Shown here: positions 24,556-59,354 of the stretch, in pieces
Layout of the letters: the number at the start of each line of letters is the position of its first letter
Position numbering within the stretch: position 1 is the first letter of the stretch
Assembly (NCBI RefSeq): GCF_021215455.1
Contig: NZ_JAJPWV010000003.1
Coordinates: forward strand, 620,001-684,000
Source: Mucilaginibacter roseus
GTDB lineage: Bacteria > Bacteroidota > Bacteroidia > Sphingobacteriales > Sphingobacteriaceae
Direction: 5' to 3'
DNA: 64,000 nucleotides
Made by a program: the position numbers and the translations under genes
The notes under the pieces: generated by a model
What the model was told of the DNA's origin: nothing
Databases searched by the model: none
The model's input: the letters and a program-made list of their open reading frames with translations, nothing else

Positions 24556-24692
24556 CTATTTTGGCTTAGAGATAGGCTATAGATGATAGCTGATTGATTG
24601 TTATGTGAAAAACGCAGACCTCATGCCATAGCGTATATTACGCAAATTCAAATTTATTGAATAATATTATCTGATATAAAAATATATTCTTG

Positions 24693-25388
24693 ATGATAAC
24701 GGTATTTGATGATGCATATATTCAAACCAAAAAAGTGAAACAGGGGGCTTCGCATATGAACCCGGAAATGGTGCCTTTAGCGGATTGGATGTTAAAAAAA
24801 TATGGTGTAGCGCCTTTGAATATAATCTATACTAACACTTTAAACGCTGGCGAACGGACGCGCACAATCGAGATTATATTCGAATATTGTGAGCAGCAAA
24901 AGCTCTTTCTTGAAAATCAATTTGTGTTAAAAGGTGCCATAAAAAAGAAAATTTTAAAGTTTTTTAAATGGAATATAGATGTAAGGAGTGAAAATAAGCT
25001 TTTAAACTGGCTGTTAAAACCATTGCCATATTTTAAAAATGAACCATTAGTTACTTCATCATCGTTTATGCCTTTGGCTATTGAGGAAGCCAATAGTAAT
25101 ATTTCAGATGAGGATATCCAGCTGTTAAAAAAACAAATAGCTGAAATTGAAATATGGCGGATTGTCAGGAACAGCACGCATGCAATTTTCTTTTTTTATA
25201 CTGAATCAAATTTAAAGGAGTTTGACAACAGTGCCTTCAAGGAAAAACTTTCTCTCAAATATTTTCCTCTTATAAAAAAGTATGATGAATATAACTATAT
25301 CACAGTTTACAGTATATCTATATGTTTAGATAGCAAAGAAAATTTCGACAAAAAATACGGGAGCAATTGGTTTTATTACCTCAGGTAA
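24693..25388 (+). CDS. Hypothetical protein in AT-rich islet
   Basis: A 231-residue soluble protein starting at ATG 24693 (a TTG one codon upstream is less likely). Many Lys, Phe and Ile residues; no signal peptide or membrane segment. Recognisable features are a hydrophilic start with TKKVKQGASHMNPEM and an aromatic end SNWFYYLR. I recognise no family. Base composition falls to roughly one-third G+C, well below purD and secA on either side, which suggests horizontal acquisition. Confidence 0.65.
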   Translation: MITVFDDAYIQTKKVKQGASHMNPEMVPLADWMLKKYGVAPLNIIYTNTLNAGERTRTIEIIFEYCEQQKLFLENQFVLKGAIKKKILKFFKWNIDVRSENKLLNWLLKPLPYFKNEPLVTSSSFMPLAIEEANSNISDEDIQLLKKQIAEIEIWRIVRNSTHAIFFFYTESNLKEFDNSAFKEKLSLKYFPLIKKYDEYNYITVYSISICLDSKENFDKKYGSNWFYYLR

Positions 25389-30570: not shown

Positions 30571-30984
30571 ATGATGAACAAGATATTGATATTGTTTATG
30601 CTGACTTTAAGTATCAACGCTAAGCCTCAATACAGAGCATCATTCGTAAAAAAAATAAGGCAAACTGACAGAGTTGAGGTTCATTATCTTAAACTAAAGA
30701 AAGCCAAGGTTTACAAGACCGCCCATCCCACTCATTTGATCTTTTTTAAAGATCTTATAACAAAAGCGAAAAATAGCTCAAGCTCATATTGTGACACCGC
30801 TGTTGAGATACGTTACTTTAGCAAGAATATTCAAATATTTAAAGCATATTATTCCTCAAGAGCAACCGGAGGAAGACTTGGATGTGCTATAGCATTTACT
30901 GCGTCCGATCAAAAAGTTAATTCTATGTGCACATATGGGGCGGGAATGCTTATTGATGAGATGTATTATCAGTACGCCAAATAG
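30571..30984 (+). CDS. Exported small protein, unknown
   Basis: A 137-residue protein with an N-terminal signal-like segment (MMNKILILFMLTLSINAKPQ). The rest is Lys/Tyr/Ser-rich with three cysteines in the mature part (SSYCDTAVE, GRLGCAIAF, VNSMCTYG). I recognise no family. It begins 10 nt after the M20 stop but is noticeably more AT-rich than that gene, suggesting a later insertion into the operon. Confidence 0.6.
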   Translation: MMNKILILFMLTLSINAKPQYRASFVKKIRQTDRVEVHYLKLKKAKVYKTAHPTHLIFFKDLITKAKNSSSSYCDTAVEIRYFSKNIQIFKAYYSSRATGGRLGCAIAFTASDQKVNSMCTYGAGMLIDEMYYQYAK

Positions 30985-32966: not shown

Positions 32967-33650
32967 ATGCAAGCAGTTTCAAACATAGCCTCTTTTTTAT
33001 CATTAACCGAAATCCCATCAGGGCGCATTACCTTGCGGGATGACAGGTTAAAACACACCTGGACGATTGATTTAAATCCATTTTTACTTTCTAAGTTTCA
33101 GGTTACGCAAGAATTTTACCGCCATGTAACCGGCGAAAGCCCCAGTGCTTTTGACGGGCCAACCCACCCGGTAGAAACAGTGTCGTGGTATGACGCGGTT
33201 GTGTTCTGCAATAAACTCTCGGGAATTGAGGGCTTAGTTAAATGCTACGAAATTAATAACAGGGACTTTCAGGTACAATTCGACAGCAATGCAAACGGCT
33301 ACCGCTTGCCAACCGAGGCTGAGTGGGAATACGCTTGTAAGGCCGGTACCAACTTAATTCGTTACGGCGAATTAGATCAAATAGGCTGGTATAAAACAAA
33401 CGCTAACGCTACAACACACCCTGTGGGCTCAAAAGAGCCTAACGCCTGGGGTTTATATGATATGCTCGGCAACGTGTGGGAATGGTGTAATGATATTTAC
33501 GACGAGCAGGTATATGGCTCGTACCGTATATTCAGGGGCGGTGGATGGTTTGACGAAGAAAGAGGCTGTATCGCGACAAATCGCAGGCGCAGTCATCCTT
33601 CATCATTTAAAATTGATGATTTGGGTTTCAGGATAGCAAGAAATTTATAG
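32967..33650 (+). CDS. SUMF1/FGE-fold protein
   Basis: A 227-residue protein of the formylglycine-generating-enzyme/EgtB fold: PTHPVETVSWYDAVVFCNKLSG, YRLPTEAEWEYACKAGT, YDMLGNVWEWCNDIY and the C-terminal FRGGGWFDEERGCIATNRRRSHPSSFKIDDLGFRIARN. The active cysteine pair of sulfatase-maturing FGE is not intact: the position after GGW is Phe-Asp, leaving only GC. A non-sulfatase role is therefore likely. No sulfatase gene is in the window. It is 3 nt from the convergent DUF885 gene. Confidence 0.85.
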   Translation: MQAVSNIASFLSLTEIPSGRITLRDDRLKHTWTIDLNPFLLSKFQVTQEFYRHVTGESPSAFDGPTHPVETVSWYDAVVFCNKLSGIEGLVKCYEINNRDFQVQFDSNANGYRLPTEAEWEYACKAGTNLIRYGELDQIGWYKTNANATTHPVGSKEPNAWGLYDMLGNVWEWCNDIYDEQVYGSYRIFRGGGWFDEERGCIATNRRRSHPSSFKIDDLGFRIARNL

Positions 33651-37681: not shown

Positions 37682-38613
37682 TAATACTCGGGGATGTTCC
37701 TTTTGCCCGATGCAACATTTTTAAAAATCCAGAACAAAAATAAGATAATTATAAAGCTGATTATATACAGCGGATAATTAAAAATATGATCACTGTTAGG
37801 GTCTATATTACTTTTTTTGTTCTGATATAAATAAGTCGCGATAACCGCTGCACCATTGTTTATAAAATGCGCGAAAACGCCGGGCCATATGCTACCGCTG
37901 TAAGCTGCCATATAACCGAACAAAGCCCCAAGCATCAGCCTTGGCAAAAAGCCGAAAAACTGCATGTGCAGCGCGCTGAAAATTACGGCCGTTATCCAAA
38001 CAGCAGCATGGGTGTTGCCAGTCCATTGCCTGAATATGGTTTGCAGGCAACCACGAAACATAAACTCCTCGCCGATGGCCGGCAAAACGGCAACAATAAG
38101 CATCGATATGATGAAGTGGCCAACACTGTCAAGTTGTAAAACTGACTGTATCATTCGGCCTGTTTCTTCTTCTGATTCGCGCATCCATCGTTCAACGCCC
38201 TTTAAAAAATCAGGCAGTACCATTTGTTGATTAATGTTTACCAGCATCTCCATTACCGGAAACGAGAACAGCATTATGCCGAATACCAGTGGCAGTAACA
38301 GGCGGTTAAAGCCTGTATCAGGTTTAATGTATTCATCTACATCATACATAATATAACGTGCAAAGTAAATTGCCGGAGCCAGGAACATACCGATGGTAGT
38401 ACCGAGCGCGAGTGTTATCTTTACAGCGTCGATAATGGGCTGAGGCGATGTTGGGGATATATTACCAAGCTGATAAAAAACGGCTTTACCATATACTAGT
38501 ACAATAATGGCTATGGCAAGTAAGTTGGCGATAAGAACAAAGCCAATGATTACAGCTATAAGATACAGTAATTGATTTATGGGTTTTATATGATAATCAG
38601 CGCTTTCCGTCAT
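37681..38613 (-). CDS. CPBP family intramembrane metalloprotease
   Basis: A 310-residue membrane protein. Start at ATG 38613 (MTESADYHIK) is chosen because the longer open frame reaches into the divergent dusB gene. About eight membrane segments; the Abi/CAAX protease motifs are EEFMFRGCLQTIFRQW (EExxxR, about 200) and the later HFINNGAA. The family includes CAAX prenyl endopeptidases and bacteriocin-immunity proteins. It is the first gene of the CPBP-DUF2007-cdsA-psd unit. The substrate is not predictable. Confidence 0.88.
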   Translation of the reverse strand: MTESADYHIKPINQLLYLIAVIIGFVLIANLLAIAIIVLVYGKAVFYQLGNISPTSPQPIIDAVKITLALGTTIGMFLAPAIYFARYIMYDVDEYIKPDTGFNRLLLPLVFGIMLFSFPVMEMLVNINQQMVLPDFLKGVERWMRESEEETGRMIQSVLQLDSVGHFIISMLIVAVLPAIGEEFMFRGCLQTIFRQWTGNTHAAVWITAVIFSALHMQFFGFLPRLMLGALFGYMAAYSGSIWPGVFAHFINNGAAVIATYLYQNKKSNIDPNSDHIFNYPLYIISFIIILFLFWIFKNVASGKRNIPEY

Positions 38614-42650: not shown

Positions 42651-42678
42651 GTTAAAACAGGCTTAGGCCTGTTTTAAC
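42651..42678. terminator. Bidirectional terminator hairpin, hisS/TlpA
   Basis: Perfect 12-bp stem GTTAAAACAGGC/GCCTGTTTTAAC with a 4-nt loop, overlapping the hisS stop at 42663. Only short T-runs follow, so termination strength is uncertain. Confidence 0.55.
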
Positions 42679-44438
42679 GCCTCAACAATTTCATTGGCGG
42701 TTAGCTTTTGCTGTTCGCCGGTCAGCATATTTTTAAAGGCAAGTTCGCCGCTTTGTATTTCTTCGCTGCCAATTAATATGGTATAAGCTATCTGCTTATT
42801 ATTGGCGTAATCCATTTGCTTTTTGATTTTGGCACCGGCCGGGTAAAGCTCGGCTTTAATGTCTTGCGCACGCAGCTTTTGTAAAAGCGGCCAGGCGTAG
42901 GCTTCGGCATCTTTATCGAAGCAGCATATCAGCGCTTTGGTGCTTTGCACCGCCGCGATAGGGAACAGGTTAAGCTCCTCCATCACATCATAAATCCTAT
43001 CGGCACCAAAGCTGATACCCGCGCCGGTAAGGTTTTTTAGTCCGAACATACCTGTAAGGTCATCATATCGGCCGCCGCCGCCAATGCTCCCCATCTGCAC
43101 CTCGTTGGTTTTAACCTCGAAGATAGCGCCGGTGTAGTAGTTCAAGCCGCGGGCAAGGGTAATGTCCAATTCTAAAACCGCCTTTTGTAATGGCGCAGCA
43201 TTAATAAAGTTCAATACGGTTTCAATTTCATCGCAACCTTTAAGTCCGGTTGCTGATGTGGCTAAAGCCTGACGCAGACTGGTCAGCTTTTCGGTATTTG
43301 TACCTTGAAGCAAGATCACCGGTTTTAGCTTTTCAATATCTTGCTCAGTAAAGCCCTTGGTAATTAGTTCAGCAGTAACACCATCCATGCCTATTTTGTC
43401 CAGCTTATCAATGGCTACGGTAAGATCAATAATACTATCGCTTTTGTTGATAACTTCGGCGATTCCTGATAGTATTTTTCTATTATTGATTTTTACAGTA
43501 AAATCCTTCAGTCCAAGTTTGCTTAAAGCTTCATCATATATCTGCACAAATTCAGCTTCGTTAAGCAGCGAATCAGACCCAACTACATCGGCATCACACT
43601 GGTAAAATTCACGGTAACGGCCTTTTTGCGGCCTGTCGGCACGCCAAACCGGTTGCACCTGGAAACGCTTGAACGGAAAGGTAATATCATTTTGGTGCTG
43701 CACTACGTAGCGCGCGAATGGAACGGTCAGATCGTAACGCAGGGCTTTCTTTGATATGCTTGAAGTCAGAGATTTATTATTTAATCGCTTCGTAATTACT
43801 GTTTCATGTGCAATAATTCTTTGCAAATTGCTGTTTTTATTCAATAGGTATTCAAATCCTTTACTGATCTCTTCTATTCTAGAACCAATATTTTCTATAC
43901 TAAAATAGTATCTAAACCTATTTTTAAAGGGACGAAATTTAGGGCTTTCGCCCTTCCTAAATAGATATGCAACAAACACCCTCTTAATTGACAAAAAATA
44001 ATGAGGAGATTTAATTTCAGAAGTAAACAATTCTGAATACAATTTATCTGTAAGATAATCCTTTAAATATATATCCCCCTCCTTTAAAAGCTCGGAATCC
44101 ATCTCAGCAATTTGTCTGGAAAAATCAACTGAAATTTGTTTAAATATGCTTTTGACAGATGCTTCTAATTCAAAATCTTCAATTTTCGACGATAATTCTT
44201 TACTTAAATCAGATGCATATTCTCCTGACTCAAGTATTTTAAATATCAATCTATCGCCTTCGTCACCGTATTTCCCCATTAGCGTATCAGAGTTCTCCAT
44301 AGCGGGGGTTTCTATTTGCTGATAACCATATTTACGAAAAACCGACTTAATGGTATCAAATATAAAGTTACGCTTTGCCATTTCGGCCGGAGAGAAATCA
44401 CGGGTGCCCTTTGGTACTGATGGTTTGATGGATGCCAT
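42663..44438 (-). CDS. hisS: Histidine-tRNA ligase with an inserted AT-rich segment
   Basis: A 591-residue class II aminoacyl-tRNA synthetase. Start at 44438 (MASIKPSVPKGTRDF) has a -7 promoter element 5 nt upstream, excluding the longer frame. Recognisable: motif 1 region KYGYQQIETPAMENSDTLMGKYGDEGDRLIFKI, ALRYDLTVPFARYVV, motif 2 PVWRADRPQKGRYREFYQCD, histidine-binding RGLNYYTGAIFEV, motif 3 GGGRYDDLTG, GISFGADRIYDV, and a C-terminal anticodon domain. Residues about 75-225 (nt 43766-44216) replace what is normally a loop of some 25 residues, and are much more AT-rich than the rest. Family members are about 455-460 residues; see findings. Confidence 0.93.
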   Translation of the reverse strand: MASIKPSVPKGTRDFSPAEMAKRNFIFDTIKSVFRKYGYQQIETPAMENSDTLMGKYGDEGDRLIFKILESGEYASDLSKELSSKIEDFELEASVKSIFKQISVDFSRQIAEMDSELLKEGDIYLKDYLTDKLYSELFTSEIKSPHYFLSIKRVFVAYLFRKGESPKFRPFKNRFRYYFSIENIGSRIEEISKGFEYLLNKNSNLQRIIAHETVITKRLNNKSLTSSISKKALRYDLTVPFARYVVQHQNDITFPFKRFQVQPVWRADRPQKGRYREFYQCDADVVGSDSLLNEAEFVQIYDEALSKLGLKDFTVKINNRKILSGIAEVINKSDSIIDLTVAIDKLDKIGMDGVTAELITKGFTEQDIEKLKPVILLQGTNTEKLTSLRQALATSATGLKGCDEIETVLNFINAAPLQKAVLELDITLARGLNYYTGAIFEVKTNEVQMGSIGGGGRYDDLTGMFGLKNLTGAGISFGADRIYDVMEELNLFPIAAVQSTKALICCFDKDAEAYAWPLLQKLRAQDIKAELYPAGAKIKKQMDYANNKQIAYTILIGSEEIQSGELAFKNMLTGEQQKLTANEIVEALKQA

Positions 44439-44442
44439 GCGG

Positions 44443-44450
44443 CAAAGGTA
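44443..44450 (-). promoter_or_regulatory. Candidate -7 element of hisS
   Basis: TACCTTTG on the minus strand fits TAnnTTTG and ends 5 nt before ATG 44438. The longer upstream frame would start beyond it, so this element decides the start. Confidence 0.45.
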
Positions 44451-44478
44451 AAAAAAATACCATGTCCTAATTAAATAG

Positions 44479-44486
44479 TAGCTTTG
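44479..44486 (+). promoter_or_regulatory. Candidate -7 element of surE
   Basis: TAGCTTTG fits TAnnTTTG and ends 7 nt before ATG 44493. The in-frame TTG at 44484 falls inside it, supporting ATG 44493. The divergent hisS element is 29 nt away. Confidence 0.45.
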
Positions 44487-44492
44487 CAGTCT

Positions 44493-45263
44493 ATGAAAAA
44501 AGACAAGCCAACCATATTGGTAGTGAACGATGATGGCATCACCGCGCCGGGCATTAAGGCGCTTATTTACGCCATGAATGATATTGGCCGCGTAGTGGTG
44601 GTTGCGCCTGATAGTCCGCAATCAGGCATGGGGCATGCCATTACTATAGGCAAGCCGCTGCGTTTTGATAAGGAAGACCTGTACGAGGGTATAGAGATGT
44701 ACAAATGCTCAGGCACGCCGGTTGATTGTGTTAAGCTGGCCGTAAACCTGGTTTTTAAAGGTAAAAAGCCTGATCTGTGCGTATCGGGCATTAATCACGG
44801 ATTGAACAATTCTATCAACGTATTATACTCAGGCACCATGTCGGCCGCGGTTGAGGGCGCTATCGAGAGCATCCCATCCATAGGTTTTTCACTGGATAAT
44901 TATACCCAGCAGGCTAACTTTGAGCCTTGCGTTAAATATGTAAAGGAGATAGCCCTGCAAGTGCTGGAGCATGGCCTGCCTACGGCTACCCTGCTTAACG
45001 TGAACTTTCCGGCTACGCCTTTAAAAGGAATAAAAATATGCCGCCAGGCTAATGCTAAATGGGCTGAAGAGTTTGACGAGCGCATGGATCCGCATAATCG
45101 CCCTTATTATTGGCTCACCGGTGTTTTTCAGCTGAATGACCAAGGTGAAGATACCGATGTTTGGGCATTGGAGAATGGCTATGTATCAGTAGTGCCCGTA
45201 CAGTTTGACATGACCGCCCACCACGCCATTCCGGTTTTGAACAGCTGGAAGTTTAACGATTAA
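44493..45263 (+). CDS. surE: 5'-nucleotidase SurE
   Basis: A 256-residue metal-dependent survival-protein phosphatase. The fold motif ILVVNDDGITAPGI carries the acidic metal ligands; VAPDSPQSGMGHAIT, CVSGINHGLNNSINVLYSGTMSAAVEGAI and NVNFP follow in order. SurE dephosphorylates 5'/3'-nucleotides and short polyphosphates. It is 17 nt before lpxB on the same strand, as in other Bacteroidota, so the two form an operon. It is divergent from hisS. Confidence 0.95.
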   Translation: MKKDKPTILVVNDDGITAPGIKALIYAMNDIGRVVVVAPDSPQSGMGHAITIGKPLRFDKEDLYEGIEMYKCSGTPVDCVKLAVNLVFKGKKPDLCVSGINHGLNNSINVLYSGTMSAAVEGAIESIPSIGFSLDNYTQQANFEPCVKYVKEIALQVLEHGLPTATLLNVNFPATPLKGIKICRQANAKWAEEFDERMDPHNRPYYWLTGVFQLNDQGEDTDVWALENGYVSVVPVQFDMTAHHAIPVLNSWKFND

Positions 45264-47033: not shown

Positions 47034-47564
47034 GATGCTGACGTTTTGTGATTGAGTTTATTCCAATACAATGCCAAACGCCAAATCGTGCAGAACATAG
47101 CCACCCGAGCGTCGGTTTGATCTTAATCTTATTACACTAAACACCCTGTTTGAAGCTAAAAAGTGCCAGTAATAGCATACAATGTTGTATAAATTAGCAA
47201 TACAATCTGTCGGCTCGAGTGGTCAAAAAAGGAATTTTAAGATTTTTTGATGTGCAGTTTAATGACCAAGCGGATAGTGTTTCTTACTGTCATCCGATTG
47301 TCCTGAATGTTATACAGTTTGGTAGACAACCGGTACAACTATGTAAAGCAATCGCCAGGCTGACTTTCATATCTTCACCAAAGCAGTCAAATAGCGTATT
47401 TCAAATAATGAACCTTTGGAATATATTGACCAGGCTAAAATATCTTTTGAAAGATTTTAACCTATAAACTACTCATTTACCTATTGAAAAGGCTGTTTTT
47501 TGTTTAGCTGCAACATAAAATATTTATTAAGCCGTTTATTTGCAAAACAATTCAACAACTTTCG
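47034..47564. other. 531-bp AT-rich intergenic stretch
   Basis: No gene is supported here. An 82-codon frame starting GTG at 47219 has no protein-like pattern. The only ordered sequence is the inverted repeat ATACAA-TG-TTGTAT at 47177-47190 with a further ATACAA at 47200, a possible protein-binding site. Confidence 0.5.
47177..47190. promoter_or_regulatory. ATACAA/TTGTAT inverted repeat
   Basis: Perfect inverted repeat ATACAA-TG-TTGTAT, with a third half-site ATACAA at 47200-47205. No neighbouring regulator gene points to a function. Confidence 0.25.
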
Positions 47565-58290: not shown

Positions 58291-59088
58291 TTAAATCACT
58301 TCCAGGTTGTGGCCGCTCAGGTACAGTGCTATAATTATGCCACCCACAACAATACGATACCAGCCAAATAATCTGAAACCTTTGCGCTCCAAAAAGCTGA
58401 TGAATGTACGTATGGCCAATAGCGCGACTATAAAGGCAACTACGTTACCTACAAGCATAAACTTTATCTCGTCGCCGGTAAAAGTATGGCCGTCCTTATA
58501 GTAATCTAATAACTTTTTAGCGGTTGCCGCAAACATGGTAGGTACAGCTAAAAAAAAGGAAAACTCGGCAGCCGCGGTACGGCTAAGCTTTTGCGTCATA
58601 CCACCAATTATGGTTGATGCCGAGCGAGACATACCGGGTATCATGGCCAGGCATTGAAAAAAGCCTATTTTTAACGCTATCGGGAAGGTTATATCTTCTT
58701 CTTTAGTAATCAGCGGTTTATTAAACCACTTATCAACAAATAATAATATGATACCGCCTAAAAACAGCGTAATGCCTACGGTAAGGGCGCTTTCAAGCAA
58801 CTTATCGATAGCATCGCTCAATAAAAAGCCAAACACTGCAGCCGGTATAAAAGCCACCAGCAGTTTGAAGTAAAATCTTGTCGACTGAAAAAATCGCTTA
58901 AAATATAACACCACAACAGACAAGATTGCTCCTAATTGTATGGCGATGGTGAACAACTTGATAAACGGATCGGACGCGATGCCCATTGCTGATGAAGCAA
59001 TGATCATGTGCCCGGTAGATGACACAGGTAGAAATTCTGTCAGCCCCTCAATTATAGCGAGGATGACGACATGTATCATATTGATCAT
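58291..59088 (-). CDS. uppP: Undecaprenyl-diphosphatase
   Basis: A 265-residue membrane phosphatase recycling the lipid carrier of peptidoglycan synthesis, also called BacA. About eight hydrophobic segments; motif 1 [15 protein letters not shown] and motif 2 [15 protein letters not shown] are intact. It overlaps the DUF3098 gene by 4 nt and is downstream of ftsX in the same transcript. Confidence 0.96.
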
Positions 59089-59354
59089 GCCTTGCTTGCC
59101 GGTTTGCGTAATATAGCGTAAAAGCCTACACCAAAGCCGGCCAGTACTACTATGGGTGCTACTACAATTTTAGTATTGCTGTAAATATCGGTTGTTCCGG
59201 CCATCAGCACAAAGCCTAAAGCTACAATGGCTATCGCGATGATGAATAGCTTATAGTTATCCTTATTGAAGATGAAGTTCACAGGTGCTTCAGGCTGAGT
59301 TGTTTTTGCCGTAGTCCTGAAAGTAGTTACCGGTTTTGCTGGTTGTTGTGCCAT
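59085..59354 (-). CDS. DUF3098 membrane protein
   Basis: An 89-residue protein with two helices (about 34-52 and 65-84). This is the small DUF3098 family of Bacteroidota, conserved between ftsX and uppP, and presumed to link the division and wall-lipid genes; its role is unknown. It overlaps uppP (ATGA, 4 nt) and follows ftsX by 39 nt. Confidence 0.9.

Follow-up and report, generated by a model that had tools for sequence, protein, structure and literature searches.

In-frame replacement of one histidyl-tRNA synthetase loop by unrelated AT-rich cassettes in Mucilaginibacter

Sequence comparison shows that the short loop of histidyl-tRNA synthetase (HisRS, gene hisS), an essential enzyme, has been replaced repeatedly and in frame by a pool of unrelated AT-rich cassettes in soil bacteria of the genus Mucilaginibacter, and that cassettes have been exchanged in this housekeeping enzyme. 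The loop was replaced in 41 of 138 Mucilaginibacter HisS proteins and, by long loops of other kinds, in several further families of Bacteroidota; the site and its exchange are therefore regarded as the finding. In our judgement it is a little short of an even chance that HisRS has, immediately ahead of LRYDLT, a hypervariable loop at which cassettes are swapped in frame and whose variety is driven by an antagonist. The window, a stretch of 64,000 nucleotides of the Mucilaginibacter roseus genome, carries one such gene.

The hisS gene of the window was located at 42663..44438 on the minus strand and encodes a protein of 591 aa. It is part of an open reading frame at 42663-44621 (minus strand), in which translation would yield 652 aa if begun at a TTG and yields 591 aa if begun at the ATG at 44438; from this ATG the frame reads through the extra segment, as the original prediction of an in-frame insert had it. 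The protein is also longer than its relatives, as had been noted: HisS has 458 aa in the three nearest sister species and 454-464 aa in 97 Mucilaginibacter proteins with a short loop. It scored 394 bits against TIGR00442 (cut-off 286.75), which places it in that family, and the best-scoring stretches for TIGR00442 and for the Pfam catalytic and anticodon-binding families lie 3' of the insert. The motifs around the insert were found intact, conserved HisS columns being present on both sides of the segment in an alignment of 40 rows. The LRYDLT stretch (residues 233-238, 43725..43742, minus strand) adjoins the cassette end and comprises six columns invariant over the 40 rows; we assume that it lies near the histidine site and helps to bind histidine. 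The stretch RPQKGRYREFYQ (residues 269-280, 43599..43634, minus strand), which we take to be motif 2, has 11 of 12 columns invariant or nearly so, and the conserved core ARGLNYYTG (residues 429-437, 43128..43154, minus strand) consists of invariant or nearly invariant columns. The window HisS is likely to charge tRNA-His, since it is the single hisS match in a genome listed as 99.87% complete. Synonymous differences among short-loop species in hisS codons 2-43 (about 44310-44435) amounted to 0.33-0.50 per block, somewhat below most later blocks; this stretch could be a recombination anchor or hold a signal in the message.

The variable cassette of the window gene (residues about 74-224, 43767..44219, minus strand) replaces the short loop between FKILxSGxY and ISxKALRYDL. 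It lies in the catalytic core, directly N-terminal of LRYDLT, at what is presumably the tip of a hairpin, and was assigned to family E182; this and the other cassette family names are labels coined in the present analysis. The coordinates and residue numbers originally predicted for the insert were accurate to within a few bases, and the AT-richness judged by eye was borne out by calculation, with a G+C content of 0.292 against 0.450 in the remaining hisS and a GC3 of 0.239 against 0.462. Intervals of 150 bases starting at 43775-44150 had 25-34% G+C and the flanks mostly 41-57%, and a second dip within hisS (33-38%) was observed at about 43325-43625. The three nearest sisters (G106, G112, and G052), whose HisS proteins are 95-96% identical over the C-terminal part, have no cassette; their alignment gave a loop of 49 aa, which agrees with the short loop expected in relatives. 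The same segment with normal composition was looked for in sisters and in HisS of distant Bacteroidota and was not found there. An assembly error is unlikely because homologous segments are present in other genomes.

Loop length was measured from KYG to LRYDL in genome collections with one genome per species. Eleven named records have a HisS identical to one of the genus loci, and each of them is a Mucilaginibacter, which fixes the genus. Among 149 Mucilaginibacter genomes, 142 had a hisS match and 140 were taken on, G009 and G131 with incomplete matches being left out; G078 (short loop, by eye) and G128 (E182, at a contig end) were not included in the 138 complete, distinct HisS proteins compared. 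The short loop of 48-53 aa was present in 97 of the 138 (49 aa in 68 of these 97), and a longer loop of 68-183 aa was found in 41. In 153 distinct HisS proteins, the loop ranged from 40 to 196 aa. Outside the loop, the protein measured 406-415 aa in all 138 cases; therefore, the length variation is confined to the loop. Three other synthetase genes of the same genus were used as controls. In a search of 80 genomes, thrS was matched in 79, over 1701 bases in 78 of these and over 1707 in the other; a further match was partial. The serS match spanned 1248 bases in 58 of 60 genomes (the other two 1251 and 1275), and the aspS match spanned 1731-1737 bases in all but one of 60, the exception being a partial match of 1695. 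Short loops, too, fall into subtypes, of 48, 49, 50, and 53 aa (seen in L010, L079, L131, L213, and others). Since the 53-aa type, which has FW...QK, is shared with Pararcticibacter, short alleles may take part in the exchange.

According to an all-against-all comparison, the 41 long loops comprise seven recurrent families and eight singletons. The families are A105 (nine members), B119 (seven), C74 (five), D108 (five), E182 (three, including the window), F95 (two), and G82 (two). Profiles of the five larger families matched each other mainly at the shared ends, and B119 and D108 could be aligned over their full length at only 7.3% probability. Family A105 is loose internally and may owe part of its coherence to junction residues. 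Lengths of 100-110, 112-126, and 182-183 aa recur in unrelated clades. Unrelated allele families thus occupy one fixed point, as at a hypervariable locus. A fourth E182 carrier in the genus is G128, whose sequence ends at the contig end; 23 columns are invariant among the four members, which indicates that the cassette is constrained. The window cassette was 46%, 45%, and 35% identical by tblastn to those of G048, G128, and G058 (43%, 41%, and 30% in the E182 alignment) and 38% identical to an E182 cassette of another genus. In the 16 within-family pairs listed, all with at least 36% identity, the cassettes shared 36-62% of their amino acids and the HisS cores 72-91%; the full range of within-family cassette identity was 21-66%. 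Judged by these identities, the cassettes evolve faster than the core.

For a tree of hisS, the loop and the adjoining flanks were removed from the sequences, and 200 label shuffles were made. On this tree, cassette type underwent at least 40 changes, a lower bound because the 'std' class, obtained by single linkage, merges lengths of 48, 49, 50, and 53 aa; the shuffles gave a mean of 40.5 (range 37-41). Descent of cassettes within a clade was looked for and not found, the number of changes being as in the shuffles and the three sisters lacking the segment. The nearest tree neighbour of a cassette row had a short loop in 33 of 41 cases and the same family in 2 of 41. Sharing a cassette family did not go with greater closeness in the core (median 0.66 for such pairs and 0.67 for the others, p 0.21), and the closest contrast, between L124 (D108) and L146 (short loop), spans 0.036 changes per site. 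The allele families are spread without descent, which is likewise a property of a hypervariable locus. The taxonomic family was sampled with 251 genomes. Apart from the genome of the window, E182 was present there in a single species, which belongs to a second genus; D108 was carried by three species from two genera other than Mucilaginibacter, and B119 was confined to Mucilaginibacter, with five species. The four loci with E182 or D108 in other genera all proved, on reading, to lie inside hisS. By these matches, the same cassette family occurs in distantly related species.

Possible traces of import were found beside the cassette of the window. Nucleotide identity to the sisters was 0.89-0.98 over codons 16-45, 0.58-0.71 over codons 46-75, 0.73-0.76 over codons 226-240, 0.87-0.93 over codons 241-270, and 0.73-0.98 in later blocks; therefore, the 5' flank alone lies outside the range of the rest. 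This flank, codons 46-73 (44220..44303, minus strand, with identities of 0.58-0.71 in blocks 46-60 and 61-75), was probably imported together with the cassette. The 3' flank, codons 225-240 (43719..43766, minus strand), was perhaps imported, but its identity of 0.73-0.76 in block 226-240 is equalled in some later blocks (0.73-0.80). The residues DRLIFK, ESGEY, and SKKAL beside the insert are those of G048, which has a related cassette, and differ from the sisters; none of the three is found in G058, which is the E182 carrier farthest removed within the genus. In the window alone, 13-15 codons out of 30 in the two flanks together had synonymous differences, compared with 109-119 out of 376-381, a weak excess (p 0.03-0.07) for boundaries picked after the data were seen. 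A group test was performed with the rows having a near short-loop neighbour (28 of 41 cassette and 67 of 97 short-loop rows). Synonymous divergence of the 5' flank was 0.48 vs 0.32 for the rest in cassette rows, and 0.35 vs 0.29, hence somewhat raised too, in short-loop rows (p 0.0019); the 3' flank had no synonymous excess in the same test (p 0.55). Raised divergence thus extends over about 28 upstream codons of conserved sequence, in keeping with import by homologous recombination anchored in hisS, which would be the simplest route by which a cassette enters the gene.

Other differences from G052 were observed elsewhere in the window. The stretches 24690-25388, 30571-30984, and 32967-33650 do not align with G052, while their surroundings do; they are whole accessory ORFs, the last of which resembles, by eye, a formylglycine-generating-enzyme-like protein. 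Identity drops to 0.55-0.75 at about 38.1-38.6 and 47.1-47.5 kb against 0.9 in the surroundings; the first dip (about 38100-38600) overlaps a long frame in its upstream part, and the second (about 47100-47500) lies mostly before a frame. An undecaprenyl-diphosphatase-like frame (named by eye) at 58291-59136 on the minus strand had an identity of 0.59-0.71 to G052 and 0.83-0.86 in the case of G106 and G112, and is possibly a gene replaced in one lineage. Unlike the hisS segment, the dips at about 38.1-38.6, 47.1-47.5, and 58.3-59.1 kb align throughout with G052, and the third covers a whole frame.

Outside the genus, 121 loci were read, which were chosen partly for length and are no random sample, so they give no frequency; the loop was 48-53 aa long in 91 of them and longer than 53 aa in 22. 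In the Bacteroidota covered here a short loop is the usual condition, and L261 has a loop of standard length. Long AT-rich loops of other sequence were found in Aquimarina (176 aa), a Flavobacteriaceae bacterium (150), Allomuricauda (138), Yeosuana (148), and Eudoraea (187), and further members of the class have long loops of 196, 139, 90, and fewer residues. The loop could be read in 15 of the 16 class genomes of a first draw, again not a random sample, and exceeded 53 aa in four of the 15. In genome G370, two hisS matches of equal length and identity were present on contigs C90 and C97, owing to either a duplicate or an assembly effect.

A putative antagonist that binds HisRS may maintain the variety of cassettes, a suggestion made tentatively and held at rather less than an even chance. 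Three observations suggest it: the recurrence of the same families, the rapid though constrained evolution of the cassettes, and the isolated position of nearly every cassette at a tip of the tree, which would fit an advantage of short duration. According to this proposal, the cassette would fold as a helical protrusion on the enzyme surface, would leave the charging of tRNA-His unaffected, and would alter the surface met by an antagonist, such as a phage protein or a delivered toxin, which would bind the HisRS loop. Rare cassettes would be favoured for a while and later lost at some cost, and such gain and loss would produce a diverse pool with cassettes scattered over the tree tips. No antagonist, partner, or copy on a phage or plasmid came up in the searches, which counts against the explanation. 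It is possible, if rather doubtful, that HisRS forms a between-species allele system in Bacteroidota, kept diverse by putative HisRS-targeting antagonists such as phage factors or toxins, with hisS as a resistance locus.

The main rival is neutral turnover, in which a permissive loop would tolerate soluble inserts, ordinary recombination would bring them in and out to no benefit, and AT-richness would result from mutation bias and weak selection. This is a serious possibility, although we would sooner doubt than accept it, and it also gives the scattered pattern. It agrees with the lack of phylogenetic signal in cassette presence alone (37 changes on the tree; shuffles with a mean of 35.6 and range of 29-41) and with the failure of any antagonist to appear. 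The base composition fits as well: mean GC3 was 0.254 in the 41 cassettes and 0.484 in the cores, with each of the 41 cassettes below its own gene, and short loops tended likewise (0.368 vs 0.479 in the core, and below the core in 81 of 97). Moreover, pN was below pS in every listed pair, pS being near saturation, and a claim of positive selection was dropped on these grounds. Less well explained by neutral turnover are the recurrence of families at similar lengths in unrelated clades, two of them in other genera, and the stability of the short loop; the site does not look free, because 48-53 aa were found in 91 of the 121 non-randomly chosen loci outside the genus. The thrS, serS, and aspS genes showed no such turnover.

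It is unlikely that the cassette is a working domain (regulatory, RNA-binding, or defence) carried by HisRS and gained where useful. The invariant columns of E182 speak for such constraint within a family, whereas the many unrelated cassettes at one point, similar mainly at their ends, speak against it. As originally predicted, the insert could not be linked to any known family: searches with E182 against Pfam, PHROGs, NCBIfam, PDB, and defence models gave no convincing match, nor did a search with B119 against Pfam. The weak E182 matches to phrog_7524 (0.0022) and PDB (best 0.18), and those of the AbiA model (0.0014) and NRBF2 (0.006), each to one of the four E182 members, were judged to be due to chance. 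None of 77 pattern stretches from IMG/VR was a relative of the E182 insert, and E182, the only family searched in phage and plasmid records, had no match there. Three profile searches across the taxonomic family gave just two weak matches outside hisS, G584 (E 8e-4) and G624 (E 6e-4), which were read on both strands and are other proteins. The helical character proposed for the insert reappeared in the AlphaFold model of the full protein, at low confidence: the core was confident, the blocks of the insert had pLDDT values of 35-58, and residues 49-75 and 227-235 beside it had values under 50 or little above. Modelled alone, the insert gave no usable structure (mean pLDDT 44.5). Foldseek with the full model recovered HisRS (PDB 6nhi, E 1.7e-43).

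The original reading, in which one HisS recently took in a single foreign domain, is very improbable as a full description, being contradicted by the many such replacements (41 of 138); the part that stands is that the segment is recent and foreign in this lineage and missing in its closest sisters. A remnant of a mobile or self-splicing element, to which an AT-rich, in-frame segment missing in sisters might point, is hardly credible, as the cassette has no inverted repeats, one short imperfect direct repeat pair, and a single complete copy in the genome (the remaining DNA matches measure 28-35 bases, E 0.075), and no mobile-element or intein family of Pfam was found in the window HisS or its insert.

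At the level of titles and abstract openings, the literature yielded nothing on such a HisRS site; PMC2923632 reports interference by CRISPR with the hisS gene of Pelobacter, another kind of conflict over this gene, which acts on DNA. The enzyme itself has the same core as the HisRS of Elizabethkingia (PDB 6nhi, phmmer E 1.8e-137), a standard Bacteroidota form whose 457-aa chain has a short loop where the window HisS has the cassette. Should the antagonist reading be true, the exchange would point to a conflict inside the cell, and comparing cassettes with protection would offer a direct route to the antagonist. Phage and toxin proteins are known to act on host synthetases, for example a phage T4 protein on valyl-tRNA synthetase and HipA on GltX; this is the kind of antagonist proposed, and none was found for HisRS here. 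Even with neutral turnover, the loop would be a place in a housekeeping enzyme where insertion is tolerated to an unusual degree, replicated naturally some forty times within a single genus. Insertions specific to a lineage, as known from aminoacyl-tRNA synthetases, mark clades by descent; the present site is similar in that an extra segment occupies a synthetase loop and different in that closely related species differ in it and distant ones have it in common. Surface antigens and receptors have hypervariable, recombining segments, a pattern usually met in surface proteins that evade an enemy; with these the hisS site has in common unrelated alleles, a fixed point, conserved flanks, and exchange between species. 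However, HisRS is a cytoplasmic housekeeping enzyme, in which such a surface-protein-like swapping pattern is unexpected.
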